Below, in pieces: positions 49,467 to 64,000 of a stretch of DNA of 64,000 bases. Source of the stretch: Zeaxanthinibacter sp. PT1 (lineage in GTDB: Bacteria > Bacteroidota > Bacteroidia > Flavobacteriales > Flavobacteriaceae). The stretch's first letter is position 1. Each line of letters begins with the position of its first letter. Both the position numbers and the translations under genes were made by a program. Below the pieces are notes generated by a model, which saw nothing but the letters and a program-made list of their open reading frames with translations, was not told where the DNA came from and made no database searches. The stretch spans positions 62,001-126,000 of the forward strand of contig NZ_JAQPCN010000006.1 of assembly GCF_028464225.1 (NCBI RefSeq), written 5' to 3'.

Positions 49467-51113
49467 TTAAGCTAACATAGTCACCGGGTTCTCCAGGTAG
49501 GCACGCAGCGTTTGTAAAAATTGCGCACCTGTGGCGCCGTCTACGGTGCGATGATCACATGCCAGGGTTACTTTCATAGTACTTCCGACGACGATCTCCC
49601 CATTCCTCACAACCGGCTTCTCTACTATTGCACCTACCGAAAGGATTGCAGAGTTGGGTTGGTTGATAATGGAAGTGAACTCGAGAATCCCGAACATACC
49701 AAGGTTAGATACAGTAAAAGTACTACCCTCCATTTCTGCAGGGGTTAATTTCTTGTTTCGGGCTTTCCCGGCAAGATCCTTAACTGCTCCCCCGATTTGG
49801 CTCAATGTCATCTGGTCTGTAAACTTCAGTACAGGCACCACTAAACCATCTTCCACGGCTACTGCCACACCCACGTGTACATGTTTATTGTAAAGGGTGG
49901 TATCCCCTTTCCAGGTAGTGTTTACCTGTGGATGCTTTTTCAGCGCCATGGCACAGGCCTTTACTACCATATCATTGAAAGAAACTTTGGTATCCGGAAG
50001 GTTATTGATCTGTGCCCTTGATGCCTTGGCATCATCCATATTCACCTCTATGGTCAGGTAATAATGCGGAGCAGTGAACTTGGATTCTCCCAATCGCTTG
50101 GCGATCACCTTACGCATTTGAGAGTTCTTGATTTCTTCTGTCTGTTCTTCACCGGCGGGTAAGGCCATGGAAACAGCAGGGGCTGAAGGAGCCGCTGCCT
50201 TAGCTGCTTGTTCGGGTTGAGCCTCAGGCTTGTAATTCTCTATATCTCTTTTTACAATTCGACCCTGGTCCCCACTTCCCTTCACCTTGGAAAGATCTAT
50301 TCCTTTTTCGGCTGCTATCTTTCTCGCCAGTGGCGATACGAATATCCGTTGACCATCCTCCGTTTCCGGGGCAGCAACCTCTTGTTTAGCAGCTTCTTCA
50401 GTAGATTTTGATTCAGCCGGTTTTTCAGCAGCGCTTGCTGATTCCTGCTTTTTATCGCCGGAAGGCTTACTGTTCAGTACTGCATCAACATCGGTTCCCT
50501 CAGGGCCAATTATAGCCAGGACTTCATCTACAGGAGCGGATTCGCCTTCCCCTATCCCTACATATAATAAGGTGCCGGAGTAGAATGATTCAAATTCCAT
50601 GGTAGCCTTATCGGTTTCGATCTCTGCAAGGATATCTCCTTCTTCGACACTGTCTCCGACTTTCTTTAGCCAACTTGCCACGGTACCTTCTTCCATGGTA
50701 TCACTGAGTCTCGGCATTTTGACGATCTCCACGCCTTCGGGAATCTCTGTACTGCCGCTGTCACTTGAGGAGTCGCTTTCTTCAGAATCTGCCTTAGACT
50801 CTTCATTAGCTTCCTCCTTGTTTTCCTTTTTGGATTCTCCTTTATTATTATTGAGCAAAGCCGATATATCTTCTCCTTCTTCACCAATTATAGCGAGTAA
50901 AGAATCTACCGGAGCACCATCTCCTTCAGCGATTCCGATATGCAACAACGTTCCTTCATGGAAGGATTCAAACTCCATCGTCGCTTTATCGGTCTCTATC
51001 TCTGCCAGGATATCACCTTCTTCTACTTTATCTCCAACTTGTTTGAGCCATTTTGCCACGGTTCCTTCTTCCATGGTATCACTCAACCTAGGCATGTTTA
51101 TTATCTCTGCCAT
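49467..51113 (-). CDS. pdhC: Pyruvate dehydrogenase complex E2, dihydrolipoamide acetyltransferase with two lipoyl domains
   Basis: A 548-residue E2 core subunit that transfers acetyl groups from lipoamide to CoA. It has two lipoyl domains with lipoylated Lys43 and Lys169, each in the sequence ETDKATMEFESF, joined by an acidic Glu/Ser/Lys linker (about 84-125). A second linker leads to the peripheral-subunit-binding domain (FVSPLARKIAAEKGIDLSKV, about 253-290), then an Ala/Pro linker, then the catalytic domain with His521 and Asp525 in HRTVDG near the C-terminus. The two lipoyl domains are so alike that the DNA repeats at about 50600-50710 and 50960-51110. It starts three bases after the E1 alpha stop. 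Confidence 0.96.
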   Translation of the reverse strand: MAEIINMPRLSDTMEEGTVAKWLKQVGDKVEEGDILAEIETDKATMEFESFHEGTLLHIGIAEGDGAPVDSLLAIIGEEGEDISALLNNNKGESKKENKEEANEESKADSEESDSSSDSGSTEIPEGVEIVKMPRLSDTMEEGTVASWLKKVGDSVEEGDILAEIETDKATMEFESFYSGTLLYVGIGEGESAPVDEVLAIIGPEGTDVDAVLNSKPSGDKKQESASAAEKPAESKSTEEAAKQEVAAPETEDGQRIFVSPLARKIAAEKGIDLSKVKGSGDQGRIVKRDIENYKPEAQPEQAAKAAAPSAPAVSMALPAGEEQTEEIKNSQMRKVIAKRLGESKFTAPHYYLTIEVNMDDAKASRAQINNLPDTKVSFNDMVVKACAMALKKHPQVNTTWKGDTTLYNKHVHVGVAVAVEDGLVVPVLKFTDQMTLSQIGGAVKDLAGKARNKKLTPAEMEGSTFTVSNLGMFGILEFTSIINQPNSAILSVGAIVEKPVVRNGEIVVGSTMKVTLACDHRTVDGATGAQFLQTLRAYLENPVTMLA

Positions 51114-51116
51114 TAC

Positions 51117-52115
51117 TTATAATTTGTGTTGCAAAAATGGATAGTCTTTTTGTTCGTATACGGTATCGTACAGCTGTTCGATCGGAGGATAGTCCGAATT
51201 ATCCGCAAATTCTTCGCACTCCTTCACCAGGTCTTTCACCCGTTTATCAATAGCTTTAATTTCTTCTTCGGTAGCGTATTTCTTATCGAGAATCACTTCT
51301 TTCACCTGGCTGATTGGGTCGATCTTCTTGTATTCTTCAACCTCATCCTTAGTTCGGTAGTGTTGGGCATCAGACATAGAATGACCCCTGTAGCGATAGG
51401 TCTTCATCTCCAGGAAAGTTGGTCCTCCGCCAGAGCGGGCTCTTTCTATTGCCTTACTCATCTCTTGTGCTACGGTCGCTGGATCCATCCCATCAACCGG
51501 TCCACATGGCATTTCATATCCCAATCCAAGTTTCCAAATTTCCGTGCTATGCGAAGTTCGCGCTACGGAAGTTCCCATGGCGTAGCCATTGTTTTCACAG
51601 ACGAAGACCACGGGCAATTGCCATAACATTGCCAGGTTAAATGCTTCGTGGAGCGATCCTTGTCTTACGGCTCCATCCCCCATATAACAAAGGGTTACCG
51701 CATCTCTCTTAAAATACTTATCGGCAAATGCAAGACCGGCACCAAGAGGAATCTGTCCTCCTACGATACCATGCCCTCCATAAAAACGATGTTCCTTTGA
51801 GAAGATGTGCATAGACCCTCCCATTCCTTTAGAAGTTCCCGTCACTTTACCATACAATTCGGCCATCACCTTCCTGGGGTCTACCCCCATTCCTATCGGC
51901 TGAACGTGGTTCCTGTATGCAGTGATCATCCGGTCCTTAGTCAGGTCCATGGCATGTAATGCACCAGCTAATACAGCTTCCTGTCCATTGTATAAATGAA
52001 GAAAGCCTCTCACCTTCTGTTGTATGTACACCGCTGCTAACTTGTCCTCGAATTTTCTCCAGAACAACATGTCTTCATACCATTTCAGGTAGACTTCCTT
52101 GGTAATTTTTTCCAT
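51117..52115 (-). CDS. pdhA: Pyruvate dehydrogenase E1 component, alpha subunit
   Basis: A 332-residue E1 alpha subunit that, with E1 beta, decarboxylates pyruvate using thiamine diphosphate. The TDP motif runs from GDGAVRQGSLHEAFN to the ENNGYAMGT segment. The phosphorylation-loop region YRYRGHSMSDAQHYR is conserved, and GGSMHIFSKEHRFYGGHGIVG is a family mark. No gene for E1 beta or E3 is next to it, so the complex is split in this genome. A -7 box lies 80 bases upstream, and pdhC follows after three bases. Confidence 0.96.
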   Translation of the reverse strand: MEKITKEVYLKWYEDMLFWRKFEDKLAAVYIQQKVRGFLHLYNGQEAVLAGALHAMDLTKDRMITAYRNHVQPIGMGVDPRKVMAELYGKVTGTSKGMGGSMHIFSKEHRFYGGHGIVGGQIPLGAGLAFADKYFKRDAVTLCYMGDGAVRQGSLHEAFNLAMLWQLPVVFVCENNGYAMGTSVARTSHSTEIWKLGLGYEMPCGPVDGMDPATVAQEMSKAIERARSGGGPTFLEMKTYRYRGHSMSDAQHYRTKDEVEEYKKIDPISQVKEVILDKKYATEEEIKAIDKRVKDLVKECEEFADNSDYPPIEQLYDTVYEQKDYPFLQHKL

Positions 52116-52195
52116 TAATACCGATTGTTTTTAATATTCTTCTCTAAATGAAACTGACCGGACACCCCAATGGGGCCCTGATTTTTGTAGGAGAA

Positions 52196-52203
52196 CAAAA
52201 ATA
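52196..52203 (-). promoter_or_regulatory. -7 promoter box TATTTTTG of the pdhA operon
   Basis: On the minus strand the bases read TATTTTTG, an exact TAnnTTTG match, 80 bases before the pdhA ATG. The leader includes the short palindrome CCCCAATGGGG (52165-52175), too tight to be a clear hairpin. Confidence 0.5.
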
Positions 52204-52307
52204 CACATTAAATCAATAGTGAAAAAGAATTGCTAAAAAAGCTTAAAGCACTCTAAGAACTGTTTTGAATTCCACTTGGAAAATTCGCCCAATCCCTATT
52301 TTCACAA

Positions 52308-52793
52308 TTAGTCCAGGTATGATTTTCCGAAGGCAAGAGGAAGCAGATCCGCGATAGATGAACTCTTGTAAACCTCCCCGGAAGCTCCCATCATCAGGAT
52401 TGCTATTCCATCGTCCTGTCTTTGTTCGTACTCCGCTATCGCCTGTCGGCAATTGCCGCAAGGGGCTGCAGGTGTATCGACTTCTCTGCGAACAGAGTTA
52501 ACACTGATCGCTATAGCCTTTACCGCAATTCCGGGAAAACGTGCCCCGGCGTGGAAAATCGCCACCCTTTCCGCGCATAGCCCGGAAGGATAAGAAGCAT
52601 TTTCCTGGTTATTACCGATTACAATCTCTCCGTTGGCCAATAGGACGGCCGCTCCGACCTGGAAGCCGGAATAGGGGGCGTAAGCGTTCTCCCTGGCCAG
52701 GACCGCTGTCCGCATTAATTCCTGGTCCAAAACAGCTAATTCCTCCAGGCTGTCATAAATTTCGAGATCAAAAGTTACTTTCTTTTTGTGCAT
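52308..52793 (-). CDS. cdd: Cytidine deaminase
   Basis: A 161-residue zinc enzyme that deaminates cytidine and deoxycytidine in pyrimidine salvage. The zinc ligands are Cys73, Cys112 and Cys115, and the proton-shuttle Glu75 is in the LCAERVAIF motif; the second motif is PCGNCRQA. AYAPYSGFQVGAAVL is the substrate-side segment. The length suits the homotetrameric Cys3 class. A -7-like box ends three bases before the ATG. A terminator for porV lies between the two genes, so cdd is transcribed on its own. Confidence 0.95.
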   Translation of the reverse strand: MHKKKVTFDLEIYDSLEELAVLDQELMRTAVLARENAYAPYSGFQVGAAVLLANGEIVIGNNQENASYPSGLCAERVAIFHAGARFPGIAVKAIAISVNSVRREVDTPAAPCGNCRQAIAEYEQRQDDGIAILMMGASGEVYKSSSIADLLPLAFGKSYLD

Positions 52794-52796
52794 GGT

Positions 52797-52804
52797 TAAA
52801 TATA
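52797..52804 (-). promoter_or_regulatory. -7 promoter box TATATTTA of cdd
   Basis: On the minus strand the bases read TATATTTA, one base from TAnnTTTG, ending three bases before the ATG. It follows the porV terminator directly, which supports a separate promoter here. Confidence 0.5.
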
Positions 52805-52825
52805 CAATTAGCCCGTAATAATAAT

Positions 52826-52850
52826 AAAAAAACCTGCCAAGGGCAGGTTT
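52826..52850 (-). terminator. Rho-independent terminator of porV (minus strand)
   Basis: AAACCTGCC (52830-52838) and GGCAGGTTT (52842-52850) form a nine-pair stem with a three-base loop. On the minus strand it is followed by a T run (complement of the A run at 52826-52832). It lies 31 bases after the porV stop. Confidence 0.92.
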
Positions 52851-52880
52851 TATAATTTCTTTGCTATGAGTTTAAGGAAA

Positions 52881-54026
52881 CTATTCGTTAAAGAACTCCT
52901 GCCCTAAATTGAAGGTCAGGGAAAACCTAAGCGTATTTTCTAAAGGATTTCGCACTTGCGAGGTTGAAAAAAGATAGGACAGGTCTATCTGGGCCGACTG
53001 GTACCTGAAACCAGCACCCAAAGTAAAGAACTGTCTTGAACCTTTTTGTTCACTCTCGTTAAAATATCCTGTTCTGAACATAAATTTCTCTTGAAAAGCA
53101 TACTCGGCACCTAAAGCCCATGTAAATTCTTTCAACTCTTCACTGAAACCATCCGGGGCATCCCCGAAAGATTTGAAGACCCCGTCAAAAAAGCTGATTT
53201 CCTGGTATTCTGCATTATCCTCTGAATCCACATCCCCGTCTCCGTCAAAATCCTGCGGAGTAGGAACGAGGAGCTTATTGAATTCTGTATTGATCCCAAT
53301 CACATTATCCTGATCCAGGATAAAGTCGAAACCTGCACCAAATCCAAGATTGGTAGGCAGAAAATTCTCCTGCCCACCTTCGTCATATTTAATCTTGCCT
53401 CCGAGGTTAGAAATATTAAATCCTGCTCTCCACCTACCGTCAAAATTATCATAAGCGATTTCAGGTGACCTGTAAAATCCTGCCACATCTACGGCAAATG
53501 AGCTAGCTGCCTGGGAATCTACTGATCCGTTATCCGGTAACTTAAGGTTAGAACGGATAAACCTACCGGCCACCGCCATGGAAAATGTATTGCTCAGCTT
53601 TAATGAATATGACCCGTCAATGGCTAACTCATTAGGTTTTGCCACAGTTCCGGGATCATTCGCAAATTGCCTGAGTTCTATTTCTCCTAAAGTGAAATAA
53701 CGAAGGCTTGCCGCAAAGGCACTACGATCATTAAGTTTATTAAAATAGCTGCCACTGAGCAGGGATATATCTGTAGTTATGCTTTCCAGGTAAGGGGTAT
53801 AACTCAGACCTATACCCATTTTCCTTTCAGCAAATGCAAATTTGGCGGGGTTCCATTGTTGAGCGAAGGCATCCATAGAGGTTGCAACCCCCATATCCCC
53901 CATACCGGCAGACCTGGCATCGGCTGCGATGGTTAGGAATGGTACTGCGGTGGTAATTACTCTATCCTCTTGTGCCGATACCTTACCGATCACTACCAGT
54001 AAGGCAAGCATCCATAATTTTTTCAT
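52881..54026 (-). CDS. porV: Type IX secretion system outer-membrane protein PorV (LptO)
   Basis: A 381-residue outer-membrane barrel of the FadL-like group. PorV shuttles type IX cargo from the translocon to the attachment complex at the outer membrane. The signal peptide ends GKVSAQ; the mature protein opens with ITTAVPFLTIAADARSAGMGDMGVATSMDAFAQQWNPAKFAF, the most conserved part of PorV. A calcium-like loop DFDGDGDVDSEDN lies in the middle, and the protein ends FSLTFNLGQEFFNE. In Flavobacterium, porV follows porU, which is missing here: the next gene upstream is gldJ, across 517 noncoding bases. The gene ends at its own terminator. Confidence 0.93.
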   Translation of the reverse strand: MKKLWMLALLVVIGKVSAQEDRVITTAVPFLTIAADARSAGMGDMGVATSMDAFAQQWNPAKFAFAERKMGIGLSYTPYLESITTDISLLSGSYFNKLNDRSAFAASLRYFTLGEIELRQFANDPGTVAKPNELAIDGSYSLKLSNTFSMAVAGRFIRSNLKLPDNGSVDSQAASSFAVDVAGFYRSPEIAYDNFDGRWRAGFNISNLGGKIKYDEGGQENFLPTNLGFGAGFDFILDQDNVIGINTEFNKLLVPTPQDFDGDGDVDSEDNAEYQEISFFDGVFKSFGDAPDGFSEELKEFTWALGAEYAFQEKFMFRTGYFNESEQKGSRQFFTLGAGFRYQSAQIDLSYLFSTSQVRNPLENTLRFSLTFNLGQEFFNE

Positions 54027-54543
54027 GTTTGGAATTTGGTATTATAAGCGAGTAAAGTTGTTAATAATAAAGTTTCTACTCAAATTAATTAGATGTATGA
54101 CACGGTAACGCCGTTTTTAACAATATCTTATACTTTGCAGCTAAATTTTTACAGATCCCCTGTTTTACGGACATTGGGGCACTTGAAAGCCTAATAATTC
54201 ACTATCATTTAATTTTTCCTTCCATCTTAATGGATCATCTGAAAAAATACCTCGTCAACCATACTAGAATAACATTTAGCCCGTTATGACTTTGGATGAC
54301 GAACAAAAATTTCCTTTCTGTATTCCGGGAAGGGATTAAAACGTCTAAAAGCAAAATAATCTATTGAAATTGTCGTTTTACTAGCCGAAAGCGACTTAAT
54401 CGGGTTGAGAAGGAATCTAACAGAGTACTTCCCGGTCCTTTTTAAAACTGATAATTAAAGGTTTATCCTTTCGGGGTGTTCCCGCCAAAAGTCTGAAAGA
54501 CCACTGGATATTATCACAACATATTAAAATTGACTAATAACAG
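54027..54543. other. Noncoding gap between divergent porV and gldJ
   Basis: This 517-base stretch holds no open frame worth calling on either strand. It must contain the divergent promoters of porV and gldJ, but I find only degenerate -7 boxes. These are TTAATTTG on the minus strand near 54090, one base from consensus, and TATACTTTG near 54132 on the plus strand, with one base too many. No hairpin with a T run and no tRNA-like fold was found. In related genomes the porU gene lies between gldJ and porV. Confidence 0.6.
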
Positions 54544-56214
54544 ATGAAAAGACAGTTAATCAAAGTTACACTCTCTTGCGTAGTGATTGCAGGAACCCTT
54601 ACGGCTACAAGTTGTAAGAAATCTTCTTCCTCCAAAAACGTTTCAAGAGCTACTGGCTGGAAGGTCAATGCCAAAGAAGGTGGCTTTCAGTACAACTCGG
54701 ATTTCAAAGAGCAGGAAACCGCTCCCGGGCTGGTATTTGTTGAAGGAGGAACTTTTACTAAGGGAAAAGTTCAGGACGATGTGATGCACGAGTGGAACAA
54801 TACCCCCACCCAGCAGCACGTTCAATCGTTCTATATGGATGAGACCGAGGTGACCAACGTGATGTACCTGGAATACCTTGATTACCTGAAAAGTGTATAT
54901 CCGCCGGAAGATCCTAAATACGCCAACATCTATAAAGGTGCTTTGCCGGACACTCTTGTCTGGAGAAACAGGTTGGGTTTCAATGAAACGATGACTAATA
55001 ATTACCTTCGCCACCCCGCTTATGCAGAATACCCCGTGGTCGGTGTAAACTGGGTACAGGCCGTTCAGTTCGCGGAATGGCGTACAGACCGGGTTAACGA
55101 GGCATTGCTGGAAAGAGAAGGATATCTTGCCAGTGACGCCAAATACGCTCCGGTAAACGGAGAAACTGCCGGTACTTTTAGTACCGAGGCATATTTAAAT
55201 CGTCCTGAAACTACCTATGGGGGCCAGATCGATTCACTTCAGGGAAAAAAACAAAAAGATTCTGTTGCTGTATACGCAAATCGTAACAGTGGAATCATCA
55301 TGCCAGAATACAGGCTTCCTACCGAAACAGAATGGGAATATGCCGCCCTGGCCCTGATAGGGAAAAGAGAGTATAATTCTTATCGTGGGCGTAAAAAATA
55401 TCCATGGGATGGGGAATATACCAGGAATGGTCAACGAGTTGGACGAGGTGACCAGCTAGCCAATTTTAAGCAAGGTGATGGTGACTACGGCGGAATTGCC
55501 GGATGGTCTGACGACGGCGCAGATATCACTGCCGAGGTGAAATCTTACAAGCCTAACGATCACGGCTTATACGATATGGCAGGTAACGTGGCCGAATGGG
55601 TTGCAGATGTGTATCGCCCGATTGTCGATGATGAGATCAGTGACTTTAACTATTACCGAGGTAATGTTTATATGAAAGCGGCTATCGGAGAAGATGGAAA
55701 AGCCGAAGTCCTTTCAGAAAGCATCGTCTATGACACTCTTCCGAACGGCAAACTGGTTGCAGTTAACCTTCCAGGGGAAGTAGAAATGGTTCCTGTAGAT
55801 GAGAATGAAACCTACTTACGTACCAACTTCTCCAGCAGTGACAACCGCTCCTACCGGGATGGAGATCCAGGATCATCCAGATTCTATGATAAGTTTGATG
55901 AGGACGATGAAGAAGGAGCCGACAAACTGAGCATGTACAATGCTCCAAAGCACAAGGTAGAACGGGATGAAGATGGTAACCTTATTCGTGAATACGACAC
56001 CTCTAATAGCAGAACTTCCTTGATCAATGACGAAGTGCGAGTTTACAAAGGTGGATCATGGAAAGACCGTGCGTATTGGCTAGACCCTGCACAACGCAGG
56101 TATCTGCCACAATACATGGCCACAGATTATATCGGTTTCCGATGTGCCATGTCCAGGGTTGGCTCTAAATCAACCGGGAAAAATAAAACCGTACGAGGTA
56201 AAAAAGCAAGATAA
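54544..56214 (+). CDS. gldJ: Gliding motility lipoprotein GldJ
   Basis: A 556-residue lipoprotein with lipobox TATSC (Cys24) followed by KKSSSSK, basic rather than acidic, which fits retention at the periplasmic face. The body is a formylglycine-generating-enzyme-like (FGE-sulfatase) domain: LVFVEGGTFTKG, FYMDETEVTNVMYLEYL, YPVVGVNWVQAVQFAEW, LPTETEWEYAA, DMAGNVAEWVADVYRP, VYKGGSWKDRAYWLDPAQRR and YIGFRCAM near the C-terminus. GldJ is needed for gliding and for stability of the type IX secretion machinery, including GldK. Enzymatic activity is not expected. It is divergent from porV and is followed by a strong terminator, then murF, an order conserved in Flavobacteriaceae. Confidence 0.95.
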   Translation: MKRQLIKVTLSCVVIAGTLTATSCKKSSSSKNVSRATGWKVNAKEGGFQYNSDFKEQETAPGLVFVEGGTFTKGKVQDDVMHEWNNTPTQQHVQSFYMDETEVTNVMYLEYLDYLKSVYPPEDPKYANIYKGALPDTLVWRNRLGFNETMTNNYLRHPAYAEYPVVGVNWVQAVQFAEWRTDRVNEALLEREGYLASDAKYAPVNGETAGTFSTEAYLNRPETTYGGQIDSLQGKKQKDSVAVYANRNSGIIMPEYRLPTETEWEYAALALIGKREYNSYRGRKKYPWDGEYTRNGQRVGRGDQLANFKQGDGDYGGIAGWSDDGADITAEVKSYKPNDHGLYDMAGNVAEWVADVYRPIVDDEISDFNYYRGNVYMKAAIGEDGKAEVLSESIVYDTLPNGKLVAVNLPGEVEMVPVDENETYLRTNFSSSDNRSYRDGDPGSSRFYDKFDEDDEEGADKLSMYNAPKHKVERDEDGNLIREYDTSNSRTSLINDEVRVYKGGSWKDRAYWLDPAQRRYLPQYMATDYIGFRCAMSRVGSKSTGKNKTVRGKKAR

Positions 56215-56236
56215 GACAGTTACATCAAATACTGGG

Positions 56237-56270
56237 AAAAGCCCCGATCGCTGGATCGGGGCTTTTTTTT
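56237..56270 (+). terminator. Rho-independent terminator of gldJ
   Basis: AAAAGCCCCGATC (56237-56249) pairs with GATCGGGGCTTTT (56254-56266) around a four-base loop and runs into a T tract. It ends only 12 bases before the murF ATG, so murF needs its own promoter or read-through. Confidence 0.94.
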
Positions 56271-56281
56271 ATATTTATCCC

Positions 56282-57559
56282 ATGACCACAGAGCATTTAT
56301 ACGAGCACTTCCTCAAATCATCAGGAGCTTGCACAGATACACGGAATATATCAGAAAACTGCCTATTCTTCGCCTTGAAAGGTGATAACTTTAATGGTAA
56401 TAAATTCGCGGGTGAAGCCATAGAACATGGTGCAACGCTCGCGGTTATCGACGAAGCAGAATATCATCAGGAAGGCAACACTATCTTGGTGGATAATGTG
56501 CTGGAATCACTACAACAACTAGGGAGATTTCACCGCATGCATAGTAAAGCACGAGTTATAGGACTGACGGGTAGTAATGGTAAGACCACTACCAAGGAAC
56601 TGATGCACTCGGTTTTATCACAATCCTACCGGGTAATCGCTACCCGGGGCAATTTGAATAATCATATCGGGGTTCCCCTCACTCTCCTTAGAATTAAAAA
56701 AGACACGGAGATCGCTATTATAGAAATGGGTGCCAATCATCAGAAGGAGATCGAGTTTCTATGCACCCTTGCCGAACCCGATTTTGGTTATATCACGAAT
56801 TTTGGAAAGGCTCACCTGGAAGGATTCGGTGGTGTAGCCGGCGTGATTGCAGGTAAAAGCGAACTTTATAATCATTTAAAAAACAAGAACGCTCCTATCT
56901 TCATGAATGCCGACGACCAGGTACAACGTGAAAAACTGCAGTCGTACACAAAGAAGATCGGCTTTAGTACTTCAGATAAGAACTACTATCAAATTAAGTT
57001 TCTTGAAGCATCTCCTTTTGTTTCCCTTGAAGCAGAAGGAACCGTCATTAAAACCCAGTTGGTTGGAAAATACAATTTCAACAATTGCTGCGCAGCCTTA
57101 TTAATAGGCAAATATTTTAATGTCCCCATGGTACTGATACAAGATGCACTTTCTGAATACATCCCGGAAAATAATCGTTCCCAGTTAGTAGAGCAAGCCG
57201 GTTACCACATCTTGCTGGACGCATACAATGCCAACCCCACCAGTATGAAAGCGGCATTGGAGAATTTTGACCAACTGAGATCCGATACTAAATGCGCTAT
57301 ACTGGGTGATATGTTTGAACTCGGGAAAGATGCAGAACAGGAGCACCAGGAGATCGCTGAATTAGCAGCAAAGAGCAATTTTTCAGAAGTCCTGCTGGTC
57401 GGAAAAAATTTCAGCAGATGCCGGACTTCTTTAAAACAATTTGAAGGTTTTGAAAAGCTATCCGAATACTTGGAAAAACACAAACTCCCTAAAGGTGATA
57501 TTCTGATCAAGGGCTCCAGGGGAATGGCATTAGAGCGAGTTCTGCCGTTACTTAACTGA
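56282..57559 (+). CDS. murF: UDP-N-acetylmuramoyl-tripeptide--D-alanyl-D-alanine ligase MurF
   Basis: A 425-residue Mur ligase that adds D-Ala-D-Ala to UDP-MurNAc-tripeptide, the last cytoplasmic step of peptidoglycan precursor synthesis. The ATP loop is GSNGKTTTKE (97-106). Other marks are GNLNNHIGVPLTLL, IIEMGANHQKEIEFL, ITNFGKAHLEGFGG, YNFNNCCAALLIG and LLDAYNANPTSMKAALENF. The start is the ATG at 56282; any longer frame would cross the gldJ terminator. A degenerate -7 box (TATATTTA, ending four bases before the ATG) is the only promoter hint. The sequence after the stop leads into the tandem repeat region. Confidence 0.95.
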   Translation: MTTEHLYEHFLKSSGACTDTRNISENCLFFALKGDNFNGNKFAGEAIEHGATLAVIDEAEYHQEGNTILVDNVLESLQQLGRFHRMHSKARVIGLTGSNGKTTTKELMHSVLSQSYRVIATRGNLNNHIGVPLTLLRIKKDTEIAIIEMGANHQKEIEFLCTLAEPDFGYITNFGKAHLEGFGGVAGVIAGKSELYNHLKNKNAPIFMNADDQVQREKLQSYTKKIGFSTSDKNYYQIKFLEASPFVSLEAEGTVIKTQLVGKYNFNNCCAALLIGKYFNVPMVLIQDALSEYIPENNRSQLVEQAGYHILLDAYNANPTSMKAALENFDQLRSDTKCAILGDMFELGKDAEQEHQEIAELAAKSNFSEVLLVGKNFSRCRTSLKQFEGFEKLSEYLEKHKLPKGDILIKGSRGMALERVLPLLN

Positions 57560-57636
57560 GGCTTTACCTCTGAAATGGACCAAACGAAACTGCGATTGCA
57601 AAGATCAAAATATTTGCAGATACCGCTGCTGCAAAA

Positions 57637-58030
57637 CTGACTGCCGTCAGGCAGGTAGAAAACCCCCATCCCCTGCAGGGATGCTTTTTTTTTATTCCCT
57701 CCCAACGCCTATAAGCAAGCTCAGCGCTGTCCGGGGATTACCGCGCTTCGCACGCTGATCCAGGTAAAACCGCTCCTGCAAACCTGACTGCCGTCAGGCA
57801 GGTACAAAACCCAAATCCCGCTAATGCGAGATTTGATTCTTTTATTCCCTCCCAACACTCAAGCAAGCTCAGCGTTGTCCGTGGATTACCGCGCTTCGCA
57901 CGCTGATCCAGGTAAACCCGCTCCTGTAAACCTGACTGCCGTCAGGCAGGTACAAAACCCAAATCCCGCTAATGCGAGATTTGATTCTTTTATTCCCTCC
58001 CAACACTCAAGCAAGCTCAGCATTGTCCGG
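57637..58030. repeat. Tandem direct repeat, unit 147-148 bases, two full copies and one partial
   Basis: Copies begin at the motif CTGACTGCCGTCAGGCAG at 57637, 57784 and 57932 (spacing 147 and 148). The third copy stops near 58030, where the tRNA-Val terminator begins. Copies two and three are identical over about 90 bases (57783-57873). Copy one differs mainly in a swapped hairpin block (57664-57694). Each unit contains overlapping inverted repeats (CTGAC-TGCC-GTCAG and CTGCC-GTCA-GGCAG), a hairpin block next to TTTTATTCCCTCCCAAC, and a GC-rich segment CCGCGCTTCGCACGCTGATCC. No protein frame fits the period. Similar repeats may be dispersed elsewhere in the genome; this cannot be checked here. 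Confidence 0.88.
57667..57694 (+). terminator. Hairpin terminator in the first repeat copy, probably for murF
   Basis: CATCCC (57667-57672) pairs with GGGATG (57678-57683) around a five-base loop, followed by nine or more T. It is the first hairpin with a T run after murF, 108 bases from the stop. Repeat copies two and three carry a weaker, different hairpin at the same place. Confidence 0.7.
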
Positions 58031-58033
58031 GAA

Positions 58034-58066
58034 TAAAAAAACCCACGCATAACTGCGTGGGTTTTG
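58034..58066 (-). terminator. Rho-independent terminator of tRNA-Val (minus strand)
   Basis: AAAACCCACGCA (58038-58049) pairs with TGCGTGGGTTTT (58054-58065) around a four-base loop. On the minus strand the T run (complement of the A run from 58035) follows. It lies about 10 bases past the tRNA 3' end. Confidence 0.92.
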
Positions 58067-58075
58067 TGAGTGATG

Positions 58076-58150
58076 TGGGATATACTGGATTCGAACCGGT
58101 GACCTCTGCCCTGTCAAGGCAGCGCTCTAAACCAACTGAGCTAATATCCC
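58076..58150 (-). tRNA. tRNA-Val (anticodon GAC)
   Basis: A 75-base cloverleaf on the minus strand. The acceptor arms GGGATAT and ATATCCC pair fully, with discriminator A; the D stem is GCTC/GAGC; the anticodon stem is CTGCC/GGCAG around the loop TTGACAG, giving anticodon GAC, which reads GUC and GUU valine codons. The T loop is TTCGAAT. The T stem ACCGG/CCAGT contains one C-A mismatch at pair 51-63. CCA is not encoded. The gene is followed by a terminator and then the tandem repeats. Confidence 0.93.
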
Positions 58151-58378
58151 TGGAAATCGTTTTTGAACCGGGCTGCAATATCGTAAATTTCTCGGTTTCC
58201 GGAAATACAACATCGTTTTTATTTAATGCTCCCCTAATGAGTAAAGCTGTCATATAGTGAATCAGCTGAGGTACATTAAGTATTCCTATTAATTGAGCTA
58301 AAATACCTTCGTTCCCAATTAAGATAATAATTAATTTAGTATTTACTTCATGCCCATATTTAGGCTTAATCATCGAGA

Positions 58379-58825
58379 ATGGAGTGGCTTCAGATCATTA
58401 TCGCAGGATTTACCGGCACCAGTTTAATGACCCTCTTCAGCTATATCTGTGGCGCTATTTTTAATGAAGAATTCTCGGAGCCAAAACTATTAAACCGTAT
58501 GATGCATTATTCCCGGGCGTTTTCTTCCGATATTACAGATGATGACCACAGAGGGTGGATCATACATTTTGGTATTGGGCAGCTTATGGCCTTTTGGTTG
58601 TGGATCATGTATTGCAACAGTGGGCTGGGACATGCACAGATATTAGGAGCTTTTCTTGGAGTTATGGCAGGTATGGCAGGTGCCCTGGGTTGGCTTTTCC
58701 TTTTCAACACACTTACGACCCCCCGGGATACCGACATTAGAGGATTTGTTGTTCAGCTAGTTGTAGCACATAGTATTTTTGGATGGTCAGCTTATCTGTT
58801 ATATCAACTTTGGAATCCTTGCTGA
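58379..58825 (+). CDS. Small polytopic membrane protein of unknown function
   Basis: A 148-residue protein with four predicted transmembrane helices: about 3-25, 60-82, 88-112 and 122-143. Its soluble part between the first two helices is charged (HYSRAFSSDITDDDHRGW). I recognise no family motif. The ATG at 58379 is the first in the frame. The DUF421 gene follows 27 bases later on the same strand, so the two may be co-transcribed. Nothing suggests an enzyme; a membrane stress or permeability role would be a guess. Confidence 0.65.
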   Translation: MEWLQIIIAGFTGTSLMTLFSYICGAIFNEEFSEPKLLNRMMHYSRAFSSDITDDDHRGWIIHFGIGQLMAFWLWIMYCNSGLGHAQILGAFLGVMAGMAGALGWLFLFNTLTTPRDTDIRGFVVQLVVAHSIFGWSAYLLYQLWNPC

Positions 58826-58852
58826 TACCCTAACAATTTAAATAGAATTACG

Positions 58853-59374
58853 ATGAAAGATTGGTTTGCATTTTCCTGGAACGACGCTTTAGCAATAGTA
58901 TTAACAGCTACAGGTATATACCTGGCTGTAATTATCCTCACCCGAATTTGCGGGAAAAGAAGTTTTTCCAAGATGTCAAGTTTTGATTTTGCCATGACTG
59001 TGGCTATCGGCTCCATTATCGCAACGACAGTCCTTTCAAAAAGTGTTAGTATGTACGATGGGGTGATTGGACTCATCGGTGTTTACATTCTGCAAATCAG
59101 TCTAAGCTATGCCAGGAGGTATAGTTGGGTGAATGCCCTGGTAGACAATCCGCCTTTACTTCTGATGAACGGGTCTACAATTCTTTATGAGAACCTTAAA
59201 AAAGCCAGGGTCACAGAGGCTGATCTGCGTTCCAAACTAAGAGAAGCAAATGTCATCGCTCTAAGTGAAATAAAAGCTGTCGTATTCGAAGCCACCGGGG
59301 ATGTATCAGTCCTTCATACCTCAGATGACACTCCATTAGATGATTATTTGCTCCAGGAAGTCAGGGAGAAATAA
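58853..59374 (+). CDS. DUF421 (YetF-like) membrane protein
   Basis: A 173-residue protein. Two or three transmembrane helices fill the first 85 residues, with LTRICGKRSFSKMSSFDFAMTVAIGSIIATTVL as the family-defining block (GKR and FDF). The C-terminal soluble YetF domain follows: NPPLLLMNGSTILYENLKKARVTEADLRSKLREANV and SEIKAVVFEATGDVSVL. YetF-type proteins occur widely in spore formers and in Bacteroidota; their molecular role is not settled. It follows the small membrane protein on the same strand. Confidence 0.88.
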   Translation: MKDWFAFSWNDALAIVLTATGIYLAVIILTRICGKRSFSKMSSFDFAMTVAIGSIIATTVLSKSVSMYDGVIGLIGVYILQISLSYARRYSWVNALVDNPPLLLMNGSTILYENLKKARVTEADLRSKLREANVIALSEIKAVVFEATGDVSVLHTSDDTPLDDYLLQEVREK

Positions 59375-59442
59375 GCTTCCTTAGACTTCCTGTAAACCCC
59401 TTAACTGCAAGAACTAAGGTGTACCACCAGTACCCGCTATGT

Positions 59443-60291
59443 TCAGGAACCTATGATCTCTCCTCCATTCACATGGATAAACTGACCTGTTATGTAACTG
59501 GCATCTTCACTTGCGAGGAAAACATAGGAGGGTCCGACTTCGCTCGGCTGCCCTGCCCTGCCCATAGGAGTATCTTGCCCGAAGTCTGAGACATCATCAA
59601 AAGTTGCAGGGATTAGCGGGGTCCAGATAGGTCCCGGCGCCACTCCATTAACACGAATATTATCAGGCGCCAGCATCTTGGCCAAAGATCTTGTAAAACT
59701 TACGATTGCGCCTTTGGTACTCGAATAATCGAGGAGGTGCTCACTTCCACGATAAGCGGTCACAGAACTTGTGTTGATGATGCTATCTCCTTCACCCAGA
59801 TGTTTCAGAGCACACTTAACAAGGTAGAAATAAGGAAATATATTAGTCTCAAAGGTTTTCCTGAACTGGCTTTCGCTGATCTCTTCTGCCGAATTCTTAG
59901 GAAATTGAATAGCCGCATTATTAACAAGGATATTGAGCTGCCCGAACTCGGACACACATTCTTCTACCACAGATTCACAAAAATCAAATGAACTTAGATC
60001 TCCTTTAAAGAGAAGACATCTCCCTCCTTCCTTCTCCACCATTTTCCGAGTGTCTTCGGCGTCCTTGGTTTCTTCGAGATAAATAATAGCAACAGCTGCC
60101 CCTTCCCTGGCAAAATGCACGGCCACGCTTCTCCCGATCCCACTATCACCCCCGGAGATCAATGCCACTTTCCCCTTCAACTTGTCACTGCCTATGTAAG
60201 AGTCGCGAATGACCTCAGGCTTCGGCTGCATTGCATTCTCCTTCCCTGGTTGTGATTGCTCTTGTTCCGGAAATGATTTAGGTTTTTCCAT
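59443..60291 (-). CDS. SDR-family oxidoreductase of the general-stress (YhdF/YghA-like) group
   Basis: A 282-residue short-chain dehydrogenase. The N-terminal 40 residues (MEKPKSFPEQEQSQPGKENAM and on) are the proline/glutamine-rich leader typical of this group. The cofactor motif is SGGDSGIGRSVA, the structural motif is NNAAIQ, and the catalytic residues are Ser in INTSSVTAY and Tyr/Lys in DYSSTKGAIV. The ending SYITGQFIHVNGGEIIGS is normal. The start at 60291 is favoured; an ATG at 60321 would add ten residues. A -7-like TAATTTTA lies at 60330-60337. Related proteins are induced by general stress, with unclear substrates. Confidence 0.88.
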   Translation of the reverse strand: MEKPKSFPEQEQSQPGKENAMQPKPEVIRDSYIGSDKLKGKVALISGGDSGIGRSVAVHFAREGAAVAIIYLEETKDAEDTRKMVEKEGGRCLLFKGDLSSFDFCESVVEECVSEFGQLNILVNNAAIQFPKNSAEEISESQFRKTFETNIFPYFYLVKCALKHLGEGDSIINTSSVTAYRGSEHLLDYSSTKGAIVSFTRSLAKMLAPDNIRVNGVAPGPIWTPLIPATFDDVSDFGQDTPMGRAGQPSEVGPSYVFLASEDASYITGQFIHVNGGEIIGS

Positions 60292-60469
60292 AGTCTTTAC
60301 GGTATTAATTATGGGTATCATTACTTCTATAAAATTAAATTTATAGGATTGCTAGGAAGGATGCAATTGAGAAATTCATTGCCTATAATAAGTCGTCACT
60401 ATTGAATCTTATTGCATTTTAACCACACATCAAGGAAACACAACCCATAACGCACTGATATACTCAGGA

Positions 60470-62290
60470 ATGACAGTTGTCATTGCCTGCCTTCGGAAAT
60501 TGATAAAATCGAATTTGAATTACTTAAAGTTTAAAAGTGGTGCACAAATTGACTATTTTTATAGGTATATTCCTAGATCGGTTAGAGACTTGTCAACAGA
60601 AGTTGCTCTAAAATCTTTATTTGAAGAAATAGTGCGAAATAAAATATCTACAAATCCCGGTTTTGAAAGTAACCCGATGAAGGTGGAGGCCACAGCCGAT
60701 AGCTTGAAAACGGATATTCTCGATAATGTTCCTGCTGCTATTTATACCTGCGATACCGAGGGACGAGTGACCTATTTTAACAATGCTGCAGCCGAACTCT
60801 GGGGCAGAAAACCAGAATTGAATAAGGATTTATGGTGTGGATCCTGGAAAATATTCACTACAGATGGGGATCCACTGCCGCTCGACGACTGCCCCATGGC
60901 CGTTGTACTGAAAAATAAGACTGCTATTCCCGCGCAGGAAATTGTTGTAGAAAGACCGGATGGTAAGAGGCGAATTGTAATGGTTCATCCAAAATTGCTC
61001 TACGATGCTGCGGGTAATGCAATGGGTGCTATAAATATGCTACAGGATATCTCTGAGAAGAAAAAGCAGGAAGTTGCTCTTAAACTCAGTGAAAATAATT
61101 ATCGAAAGCTCGCAGAATACCTGGAAAAGAAGGTGGAAGAACGCACCACCCACTTAAAGCAAAGTGAGCAACGCTACCATCGCATGGTAGAAGAGGTTCA
61201 GGACTACGCAATAATCCTTTTAGACCCAGATGGAAATATACTGAACTGGAATAAAGGAGCAGAAAAGATCAAGGGATATACGGAAGAAGAAATCATAGGT
61301 AAAAACTTCCATATTTTTTACCGGGAAGAAGACTGTAAAAACTTGCTTCCTGAAAAATTAATAGCAGGAGCCATTGCAAATGGTCGATCAATGCACGAAG
61401 GATGGCGGGTAAAAAAAGATGGCACCAAATTCTGGGGGAGTATTGTTATTACAGCCCTACATGATGATGAGGGGCAGATCCTTGGATTTTCTAAGGTTAC
61501 CCGGGACCTCACCGAACGCAAGCTTGCAGAAGATCAAAAAGAAAAGTATGCCCGCGATATTGAGGTAAGAAACATACAGTTAGAAGAATATGCCCATATA
61601 GCCTCCCACGATTTGCAGGAGCCCCTGAGAAAAGTTCAGGTTTTTAGTGACCTGGTCAAGAGCAACCTGGATAATAAAGAGAAAGCCATCATCTATCTGG
61701 ACAGGATGCGCAATTCTGCCCAGCGTATGGTTACCCTGATCAAGGACGTACTAAAATATTCCAAGGTATCCGATTTTGATGAGTTCTTTACCTCCGTAAA
61801 CCTTAACGAGGTCTTCGAAAACGTTAAAGAAGATTTTAATCTCTTACTAGAGGAAAAACAAGTAAAACTAACGACTACAGAATTACCGACGATAGAGGGA
61901 ATACCTGTACAGCTACATCAGTTATTATCCAACCTATTGGGAAACGCCATCAAATTTTCCGCAGACAGCCCTGAGATACACATTTTCGCTTCAGATGTCG
62001 ACATGGCAGAACTAAAGGAATTCGAGGAACTCGATCCGACCAAGTCCTATATCAAACTAATAGTATCTGATAAAGGAGTGGGGTTTGAACCGCAATATGC
62101 AGATGCCATATTCACCATGTTTAAAAGATTAAGAAGCGATGCACAGGGAAATGGTATAGGCCTTACGCTCTGTAAAAAGATCGTGGAGAACCATGAAGGA
62201 AAAATAATTGTCGAAAGTCGACCCGGAGTTGGTACTACCTTTACCATTTACCTGCCTAAAAAATATTCAGGTAAGCGCATTAAAAAATAA
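60470..62290 (+). CDS. Orphan PAS-domain sensor histidine kinase
   Basis: A 606-residue cytoplasmic kinase without transmembrane helices. Two PAS domains are visible: about 80-195 (VPAAIYTCDTEGRVTYFNNAAAELWG) and about 238-352 (VQDYAIILLDPDGNILNWNKGAEKIKGY, with GFSKVTRDLTERK at its end), joined by a coiled coil (about 195-235). The HisKA helix carries phospho-acceptor His380 in ASHDLQEPLRKV. The ATPase domain has the N box LLSNLLGNAIKFS, G1 VSDKGVGFEP and G2 GNGIGLTLCKKI. No response regulator gene is adjacent. The first 69 residues show no domain similarity and are AT-rich in DNA, so translation may start at the ATG at 60677. Confidence 0.9.
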   Translation: MTVVIACLRKLIKSNLNYLKFKSGAQIDYFYRYIPRSVRDLSTEVALKSLFEEIVRNKISTNPGFESNPMKVEATADSLKTDILDNVPAAIYTCDTEGRVTYFNNAAAELWGRKPELNKDLWCGSWKIFTTDGDPLPLDDCPMAVVLKNKTAIPAQEIVVERPDGKRRIVMVHPKLLYDAAGNAMGAINMLQDISEKKKQEVALKLSENNYRKLAEYLEKKVEERTTHLKQSEQRYHRMVEEVQDYAIILLDPDGNILNWNKGAEKIKGYTEEEIIGKNFHIFYREEDCKNLLPEKLIAGAIANGRSMHEGWRVKKDGTKFWGSIVITALHDDEGQILGFSKVTRDLTERKLAEDQKEKYARDIEVRNIQLEEYAHIASHDLQEPLRKVQVFSDLVKSNLDNKEKAIIYLDRMRNSAQRMVTLIKDVLKYSKVSDFDEFFTSVNLNEVFENVKEDFNLLLEEKQVKLTTTELPTIEGIPVQLHQLLSNLLGNAIKFSADSPEIHIFASDVDMAELKEFEELDPTKSYIKLIVSDKGVGFEPQYADAIFTMFKRLRSDAQGNGIGLTLCKKIVENHEGKIIVESRPGVGTTFTIYLPKKYSGKRIKK

Positions 62291-62418
62291 ATTCTCACCG
62301 GAGACTTATGCTGCAGAATAACAATTGCAAATGTTCCTACACAAACTTAAGCTCCGATGAGAATTCTGATATTTTAATAACCGTCCCCGGCCTAATTGCA
62401 ATTTCGGTCAGGTCATTA

Positions 62419-63813
62419 TTATTTGCCTATAGTAATTGCCTTCACGTTCACAAATTCTTTCATCCCAAAACCACCGTGTTCCCGGCCAAAGCCTGAATTT
62501 TTCACCCCTCCAAAGGGCATAGAAGGCTCTGCCAGGCCGAAAGTATTGATAAAGATCATCCCGGTGTCAAAATAGTTTTCAGCAAGCCTCGTGGCCTTAT
62601 CAACATCTTTGGAAAAGATTCCTCCACCCAGGCCAAACCTGCTATCGTTTGCAATTTGCATGGCTTCTTCTGCATCGGCTGCATGGATCAGTGAAGCCAC
62701 AGGACCGAACAACTCGTCATCGTAAGCGGGTTGACCGGCTTTAACATTTGCAAGAACGGTTGCCGGGTAGAAGAACCCTGTTCCATCAGGAATAGAACCT
62801 CCGCATAGAATTTGCGCTCCATGAGCCACACTTTTTTGAACTTGATCATGTAGGGTTTCTCTCAGATCTTCCCTTGCGATGGGACCGAGATCAGTTTCAT
62901 CCAGGGTAGGGTCCCCCAATTTAAGAGCCTCCATGGCCTCCACGAAAGCTGATTTAAATCTCTCGTAAACGGCATCCACCACAATAAATCTTTTGGCCGC
63001 AATACAGGTTTCCCCGTTATTATAGATCCGACCTTTTACACACATTTCTACTGCCAGGTCGAGGTCGGCATCCTCCAGTACGATATAGGCATCGTTACTA
63101 CCCAGCTCCAATACAGTCTTCTTTAATTCGGCCCCTGCCTTCTGACCGATATCTTTACCGGCTGCAGAACTTCCTGTCAAGGTAACACCCCTTACATGAT
63201 CATTCTTGATGACAGCATCTGACTGTTCGTGCGATATAACCAGGCAACTAAAAAGATTTTCAGGTAAACCCGCTTCTCTAAAAATCTTTTCCAAAAGCTT
63301 TCCTGTCCCCGTTACATTTGAAGCATGTTTCAACAGAATTCCATTACCGGCCATTAGGTTGGCGATAGCATAGCGCACCACCTGGTAAGAGGGATAGTTC
63401 CATGGCTGAATTCCGTATATTACGCCGATAGGAGAATAAGTAATTATTCCTTTTCCACCATCAGATAAGGTCCTTTCTTCATTTTTAAGCTCCTCGGGAC
63501 CATGTTCAGCTGTATAATTGCATATAGCTGCACATAAGTCGACTTCCTGTCTACTTTGCACCAGGAGTTTACCCATTTCAGCTGTCATTAATTCCGCCAA
63601 TTCTTTCCTGTTCTCTTTAAGACCCTCTCCGATAGCCTTGATCTTCTTGGCCCTGTCGTTTAAAGAAACATGCCTCCATTTACTAAATGCCTGTTGGCAT
63701 GATTCTATGACTTTTTCCACTTTACTGTCCGAGAAATACTCGTACTGTTCCATCTCCTGTCCATTGACCGGGTTAATCGTAGTTATTCTTTTATCTTTTG
63801 TTGCTGTGTCCAT
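62419..63813 (-). CDS. NAD(P)-dependent succinate-semialdehyde dehydrogenase family protein
   Basis: A 464-residue aldehyde dehydrogenase. The catalytic Cys is in NNGETCIAAKR and the general-base Glu in VLELGSNDAYIVLEDADLD; the cofactor loop is TLTGSSAAGKDIG. The pattern around the Cys and IQPWNYPSYQVVRYAIANLMAGN fit succinate-semialdehyde dehydrogenases of the GabD/YneI type, which oxidise succinate semialdehyde to succinate. No GABA transaminase or permease is next to it, so the true substrate may be another aldehyde. It lies 38 bases downstream of an SDR gene on the same strand and may form an aldehyde/alcohol-metabolism unit with it. Confidence 0.88.
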   Translation of the reverse strand: MDTATKDKRITTINPVNGQEMEQYEYFSDSKVEKVIESCQQAFSKWRHVSLNDRAKKIKAIGEGLKENRKELAELMTAEMGKLLVQSRQEVDLCAAICNYTAEHGPEELKNEERTLSDGGKGIITYSPIGVIYGIQPWNYPSYQVVRYAIANLMAGNGILLKHASNVTGTGKLLEKIFREAGLPENLFSCLVISHEQSDAVIKNDHVRGVTLTGSSAAGKDIGQKAGAELKKTVLELGSNDAYIVLEDADLDLAVEMCVKGRIYNNGETCIAAKRFIVVDAVYERFKSAFVEAMEALKLGDPTLDETDLGPIAREDLRETLHDQVQKSVAHGAQILCGGSIPDGTGFFYPATVLANVKAGQPAYDDELFGPVASLIHAADAEEAMQIANDSRFGLGGGIFSKDVDKATRLAENYFDTGMIFINTFGLAEPSMPFGGVKNSGFGREHGGFGMKEFVNVKAITIGK

Positions 63814-63850
63814 TTATATTAACTAATAATGTTTTTAAATTAATTGAATG

Positions 63851-64000
63851 TTACTGTTGCTCGCTGGGCATTACATAAACGTCATTTATATTTACCCGTT
63901 TAGGCTGGGTCAGGGCGTAGATTATGGCATCAGCAATATCTTCTGCCTCCAGTGTCGTCATTTCCTGCATAGCCGACAGTTTTTCCAGGATATCTTCATC
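63851..64000 (-). CDS. SDR-family oxidoreductase, C-terminal fragment (5' end outside window)
   Basis: The last 49 codons of a minus-strand gene are visible, ending at the TAA complementary to 63851-63853. The translation carries LEAEDIADAIIYALTQPKRV followed by NINDVYVMPSEQQ, the C-terminus of a classical NADP-dependent short-chain dehydrogenase of the YdfG type (serine or 3-hydroxy acid dehydrogenase-like). The rest lies beyond the window edge. It is upstream of the aldehyde dehydrogenase on the same strand. Confidence 0.82.
   Translation of the reverse strand, partial: DEDILEKLSAMQEMTTLEAEDIADAIIYALTQPKRVNINDVYVMPSEQQ

Follow-up and report, generated by a model that had tools for sequence, protein, structure and literature searches.

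A tandem array behind tRNA-Val(GAC) of Zeaxanthinibacter sp. PT1 as an expansion of the outer portion of a structured tRNA-trailer module that includes a terminator

The 3′ flank of a tRNA gene is usually regarded as a bare terminator. In Zeaxanthinibacter sp. PT1, the 3′ flank of tRNA-Val(GAC) holds a tandem array, which raises the question of what is being repeated there, and why behind a tRNA gene. This is the sole tandem array at the default TRF score in the window (the whole stretch of DNA analyzed, 64,000 nucleotides); it extends over 57622–58031, without an assigned strand, with a period of 148 bp, 2.8 copies and 90% matches (TRF and repeat comparison). The array is located between the 3′ side of tRNA-Val(GAC) (58075–58150, minus strand; ARAGORN and Rfam tRNA) and a convergent murF ORF (56144–57559, plus strand; Pfam Mur ligase domains, real start possibly further in), the 57559 end of which faces the array. 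The tRNA alone scores above the gathering cut-off when the window is searched against Rfam, with no other family reaching its own. An ORF at 58379–58825, described as downstream of the tRNA, has a DUF2938 match below threshold.

The palindrome CTGACTGCCGTCAGGCAG occurs at 57637–57654 (murF-proximal copy), 57784–57801 (middle copy) and 57932–57949 (tRNA-proximal copy), all unstranded, and has 0 occurrences in 100 shuffles. An initial annotation, made from the sequence alone, took copies two and three to be near-identical products of a recent duplication; a young duplication is borne out by 97% identity between the 148-nt blocks 57713–57860 and 57861–58008, with units 1 and 2 sharing 85% identity. 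The annotation also had the array stop exactly at the tRNA terminator; the array does lie there, but its tRNA-proximal edge falls a few bases short of the terminator (stem 58038–58065). An assembly artefact, which the annotation had named as a possible refutation, is unlikely, because two of the three genus relatives compared (G001, G002, and G003) were assembled separately and have arrays at the same place, between murF and tRNA-Val: 148 bp × 2.9 in G001, in which the contig ends inside the array, and 174 bp × 2.5 in G002. In G003, divergent units (no TRF row) lie between murF and tRNA-Val and behind tRNA-Val(TAC), and seven arrays with periods differing from those of PT1 stand behind tRNAs. 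Concerted evolution of the units was considered and is unsupported, with identities of 93% within PT1 and 88–93% between PT1 and G001 (comparable units).

The suspicion of a mobile or dispersed repeat was not confirmed for this unit: in the whole PT1 genome, the window unit matches nothing besides itself, no RAYT-type transposase (PF01797) was found, and what recurs is a structure, the letters of which differ from tRNA to tRNA. The suggested link to tRNA genes, and the advice to inspect other tRNAs, proved sound: many of these genes are followed by arrays and modules built alike. Based on the 3′ flanks of 40 PT1 tRNA genes (about 0.75 kb each, shorter at contig ends), six tRNAs besides Val-GAC carry arrays with periods of 103–164 bp: Arg-CCT (130 × 7.8), Val-TAC (129 × 4.4), Arg-TCT (128 × 2.4), Phe (103 × 3.3), Arg-TCG (138 × 2.8), and Ser-TGA (164 × 3.9). 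All are 3′ of the tRNA, with none on the 5′ side of PT1 tRNAs; contig C3 ends within the array behind tRNA-Arg(TCT) (L143 876–1182), as expected of a repeat-caused assembly break. Twenty 20-kb stretches serving as background (400 kb in total) contain two arrays with a period of at least 40, one of 42 × 4.5 (L184, 16617–16803) and one of 107 × 5.7 that is itself directly behind tmRNA (C5:31453–32482; L186 11453–12482). Copy number and period vary between species at the same tRNAs, and among 80 Flavobacteriaceae murF loci, arrays near the same place were identified in Muriicola marianensis (104 × 3.0) and Subsaximicrobium (114 × 5.1). The absence of the unit elsewhere in PT1 and the arrays that relatives have at this position point to local duplication.

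It is well supported that the window array arose by expansion of the outer portion of a tRNA-trailer module, which is structured and contains a terminator. On the tRNA strand, this module (~126 nt) consists of T1 (the terminator of the tRNA), hairpins P2 and P3, the second arm of a long-range helix P1 that closes a cloverleaf, and a linker ending near TATTTGCA(G/A), often followed by a hairpin D. P1 forms when the arm after P3 pairs with the 5′ arm of T1, such that T1 and P1 share one arm; the two mutually exclusive hairpins of the initial annotation are real in this sense, and its “swappable terminator-like block” corresponds to P3, whose sequence differs in the first unit. The first module behind tRNA-Val(GAC) spans 57944–58069 on the minus strand (101.7 bits with model R1, of which it is a training member) and comprises T1 at 58038–58065, followed by a T-run (terminator scan); P1 arms at 58060–58067 (5′) and 57952–57959 (3′) (fold and pairing test); P2 at 57984–58042, the base of which is the T-run of T1 paired with an A-run; and P3 at 57960–57983 (fold and pair counts for both hairpins). 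A pattern search places hairpin D (GGATCA...TAATCC, minus strand) at the unit junction (57883–57909) and in the next unit (57735–57761), and on the murF strand (plus) the murF-proximal unit has a terminator-like hairpin with a T-run at 57667–57692 (terminator scan and sequence). RNA folding of the window module gives the cloverleaf as its minimum-energy structure (−55.8 kcal/mol, z −5.9); several other modules fold as three separate hairpins, not as a cloverleaf. No Rfam family reaches its cut-off for the module. The hairpin D pattern (GGATCA-N-TAATCC) is not module-specific on its own, because only 8 of its 27 occurrences in the PT1 genome are behind tRNA/tmRNA genes or tRNA fragments.

One structural design behind many tRNAs of one genome, with differing letters, turns paralogous loci into a built-in covariation test. 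In a first version of the P1 pairing test, using 26 modules picked by eye (13 PT1 tRNAs, nine from G003, two from G002, and two others), P1 arms matched within each locus and not between loci, with a mean of −14.8 kcal/mol for own arms versus −8.55 (sd 0.57) for permuted arms, a difference reached in 0/5000 permutations. The signal persisted on all flanks without selection (PT1, n = 40, 2/5000; G003, n = 38, 0/5000), against 588/5000 (PT1) and 302/5000 (G003) for upstream control flanks. By eye, the module is present at ~13/40 PT1 tRNAs, the remaining tRNAs having a plain terminator. Model R1 was built from 23 of the 26 sequences (both Arg-CCT and PT1 Pro-TGG excluded), and RNAalifold on these 23 modules recovers T1 and the tip of P2 only. 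Alignment A2 comprises 90 rows (74 tRNA-strand matches and 16 opposite-strand echoes) fitted to the structure, and because the cloverleaf came from a vote over single-sequence folds, both R1 and the A2 pair counts lean toward it: 93.8% of the P1 cells are paired, each of the 49 pairs has changes on both sides, the covariation score is 0.616 versus 0.166 for shuffled and 0.056–0.100 for slid alignments, and the pair counts were reached in 0/500 shuffles.

In the 400 kb background, R1 finds nothing below E 0.1. Across the whole PT1 genome (E ≤ 0.01) it finds 25 matches, corresponding to 18 places and seven opposite-strand echoes; 12 places are behind intact tRNAs, five behind tRNA 3′-end fragments, and one is an inner unit of the window array, whereas no high-scoring copy was identified away from tRNA ends. 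Eleven of these places are in the R1 training set and seven are outside it, including C1:998659 at 98.4 bits. The larger set of 74 tRNA-strand matches at E < 1e-6 comes from 81 loci, with nine weak loci (L233–L241) left out; for 26 of them the locus had been selected because of its tRNA, and for 48 it had been located by R1. In 55 of the 74 cases, the module begins between −2 and +6 nt relative to the end of an intact tRNA or tmRNA, with 17 kinds of tRNA/tmRNA represented; of the remaining 19, 18 have an upstream tRNA/tmRNA 3′-end match that is reached by <1% of 1000 random controls, and one (L224) is marginal (2%).

Mismatches within the helices bear on whether the parts act as RNA or as DNA. 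Across the 74 modules, T1 has 76 G-T versus 11 A-C mismatches, the pattern that RNA from the tRNA strand would leave, whereas there is no bias in P1 (21:15) or P3 (29:26), and P2 above the T-run gives 34:20 (p 0.08); an earlier P2 figure (70:19) was dropped, having been inflated by the T-run. Read from the opposite strand, P3 likewise has no RNA-type bias (38 G-T versus 47 A-C). A T-run of at least four beside the stem was found for T1 in 56/74 modules and for opposite-strand P3 in 46/68, compared with 29/353 in the background, and in the window 58038–58065 (minus) has the GC-rich stem and T-run on the transcribed strand that define an intrinsic terminator. Thus, termination of the tRNA strand at T1 is supported by the sequence signal, whereas P1, P2, and P3 are no less compatible with either strand, or with DNA, than with RNA of one strand.

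We propose that the module is a tRNA-linked terminator/insulator that has been multiplied by local duplication, the window array being one such expansion; we hold this explanation to be about evenly balanced between right and wrong. The sequences themselves show that the module is linked to tRNAs, that its fold covaries, that the mismatches of T1 are biased as in RNA, and that many tRNAs have arrays. The main job of the module would probably be to end tRNA transcription. Beyond this, we infer insulation, any role of P1, and a mechanism of duplication: the module probably also shields the tRNA from transcription arriving from the opposite side; P1 would hold the region in its fold, whether as extruded DNA or as read-through RNA; and the outer part of the module (the P2 core, P3, the second P1 arm, the linker, and hairpin D) would be multiplied on the spot, the probable route being template switching or recombination involving like hairpin arms (TTATTCC of P2 and GTAATCC of D). 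Read by eye, the letters at the unit junction run from GGTAATCC (D) into ACGGACAACGC; at this point the first copy shows TTTATTCC (P2) ahead of CGGACAATGC. A duplication between hairpin arms of similar sequence explains this most simply. Termination in both directions is suggested by the T-runs beside T1 and opposite-strand P3, and by the plus-strand terminator-like hairpin at 57667–57692, although the opposite-strand T-run of P3 may be only the P2 partner of the T-run of T1. Several points count against the explanation: opposite-strand P3 lacks an RNA bias; modules are not enriched at convergent genes (5 convergent to 6 codirectional with a module versus 19 to 31 without, p 0.74, by a crude test that got the murF locus wrong); only ~13/40 tRNAs have a module; and the tmRNA array of PT1 has no module match below E 3 with R1.

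Integrases that target tRNA genes duplicate their attachment site at tRNA 3′ ends, and the arrays could be scars of such events, if repeated insertion and loss of elements with phage-type integrases left tandem 3′-end copies and downstream terminators. Consistent with this, a copy of the own tRNA 3′ end lies within 200 nt after 22 of the 74 modules (score ≥10, as in 3.0% of swapped pairs), with mean scores of 9.32 for own and 6.27 for swapped pairs (0/5000); the copy usually starts in the 3′ strand of the T-arm, behind a hairpin, and is followed by a further module at five loci (L243, L257, L258, L229, and L260). Likely islands also adjoin some modules. At PT1 C1:998659, a module follows the 3′ half of a tRNA-Met, and a phage integrase gene (Pfam) is near this half-copy; the intact tRNA-Met lies 91 kb away and lacks a module. 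The stretch C1:907561–998782 (L141, L242), from the intact tRNA-Met(CAT) to the half-copy, is likely an integrated island. Three more modules are behind tRNA-Arg(ACG) 3′ ends, 1.7–2.1 kb from the intact gene. The remark in the initial annotation that tRNA genes are integration sites applies to two modules at tRNA 3′-end fragments, at loci with a phage-type integrase gene (L242 and L218); beside the window array, no integrase gene was found among the ORFs of 50000–64000 (read by eye, with Pfam on murF and one neighbor). However, array units of 103–187 bp are too small to hold an integrase gene, and too short for an element; the window units contain no recognizable tRNA 3′ end (their own tail scores 6.5, equaled or exceeded by 28 of the 39 other tails); and scars leave unaccounted for the covariation of P1 and the conservation of structure past the tRNA end. 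We regard integration scars as an unlikely account of the arrays. In another genus, a partial tRNA (31.9 bits; L220 1428–1487) directly before a module is a tRNA-Met 3′ fragment.

A regulatory or processing RNA is unlikely. Under this reading, tRNA read-through transcripts with the cloverleaf would serve as a stable RNA, a sponge, or a read-through sensor, consistent with the very stable fold, the 3′ end conserved near TATTTGCA(G/A), and the mutual exclusion of T1 and P1 through their common arm; yet there is no G-T excess in P1 or P3 and barely one in P2, and most transcripts would stop at T1 first. The near-symmetry of the strands (16/90 matches at E < 1e-6 are opposite-strand echoes) and the unbiased P1 and P3 would suit a module extruded as a cruciform, serving topology, recombination, or replication, but T1 is clearly RNA-shaped, and a DNA-level role is very unlikely. 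A transposable palindromic element (REP/RAYT or MITE-like) inserting behind tRNAs is disfavored and, in our judgment, highly improbable. As with REP/RAYT palindromes, the array unit includes a short GC-rich palindrome, one of the same kind exists at two other places, and the P1 arms resemble terminal inverted repeats, but a search of the PT1 genome gave 0 matches to Y1_Tnp (PF01797) and found no RAYT gene, the P1 arms vary between tRNAs, and the unit is not dispersed, with no high-scoring copy off tRNA ends. The palindrome CTGACTGCCGTCAGGCAG was also rejected as a driver in its own right, its degenerate form matching at only two places beyond the array.

Among known systems, rtT repeats lie behind tyrT of Escherichia coli as tandem units of 100–200 bp that contain the tRNA's own 3′ end. 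PT1 also has tandem repeats directly behind tRNA genes, and copying of the tRNA's own 3′ end is seen here in 22/74 modules; unlike rtT, PT1 arrays are at many tRNAs and have a covarying cloverleaf, and the window units lack a recognizable tRNA 3′ end. The Rfam rtT family is absent from the 13 matches listed at E ≤ 5. With intrinsic (bidirectional) terminators, the module shares the stem and T-run of T1 and terminator-like sites on both strands, but here two terminators and P2 are joined by P1, and the module occurs at high score only at tRNA/tmRNA ends and is absent from the 400 kb background. A broader possibility, which we advance tentatively, is an undescribed class of structured elements at tRNA/tmRNA 3′ ends in many Flavobacteriaceae and some other Bacteroidota classes: these would adopt a cloverleaf fold, whether as read-through RNA or as extruded DNA, have a function beyond termination, and be copied along with the tRNA 3′ end. 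Tandem tRNA-mimicking arrays would then be built from T-arm-like hairpins and tRNA 3′ ends, and might act as integrase decoys or read-through sensors. We found no account of cloverleaf repeats trailing tRNA genes in the literature accessible to us, from which most subscription papers were absent. If the fold is functional, the tRNA trailers of a large phylum become accessible to direct experiment, and the arrays show a route by which tRNA 3′ ends become duplicated at sites that attract integrases.

Within the Flavobacteriaceae (60 genomes, PT1 included), R1 matches were found in 43 genomes at E ≤ 0.01 and in 21 at E < 1e-8; in a sample of the phylum (118 genomes, PT1 included), 18 genomes reach E ≤ 0.001 and 10 reach E < 1e-8. 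Counts at the looser thresholds exaggerate the spread, because a tRNA directly precedes only 2 of the 13 weak matches (31–40 bits), which comprise eight of the nine loci L233–L241 (not L237) and five weak phylum loci. Flavo-1 RNA (RF01705) matches were observed on weak tRNA-free R1 loci (L235 767–917 and L238 1609–1757). Among the 12 stronger phylum loci (46–79 bits), nine follow an intact tRNA, L268 is after a tRNA-Ser-like 3′ end, L272 is after a tRNA 3′ end recognized by eye, and L271 is unexplained. At the murF locus, R1 matches at E ≤ 0.01 in 12/80 loci; those of L098 and L116 overlie the tRNA in the opposite orientation and are likely spurious, and the other hosts include Muriicola marianensis, Winogradskyella pelagia, and Psychroserpens luteolus.
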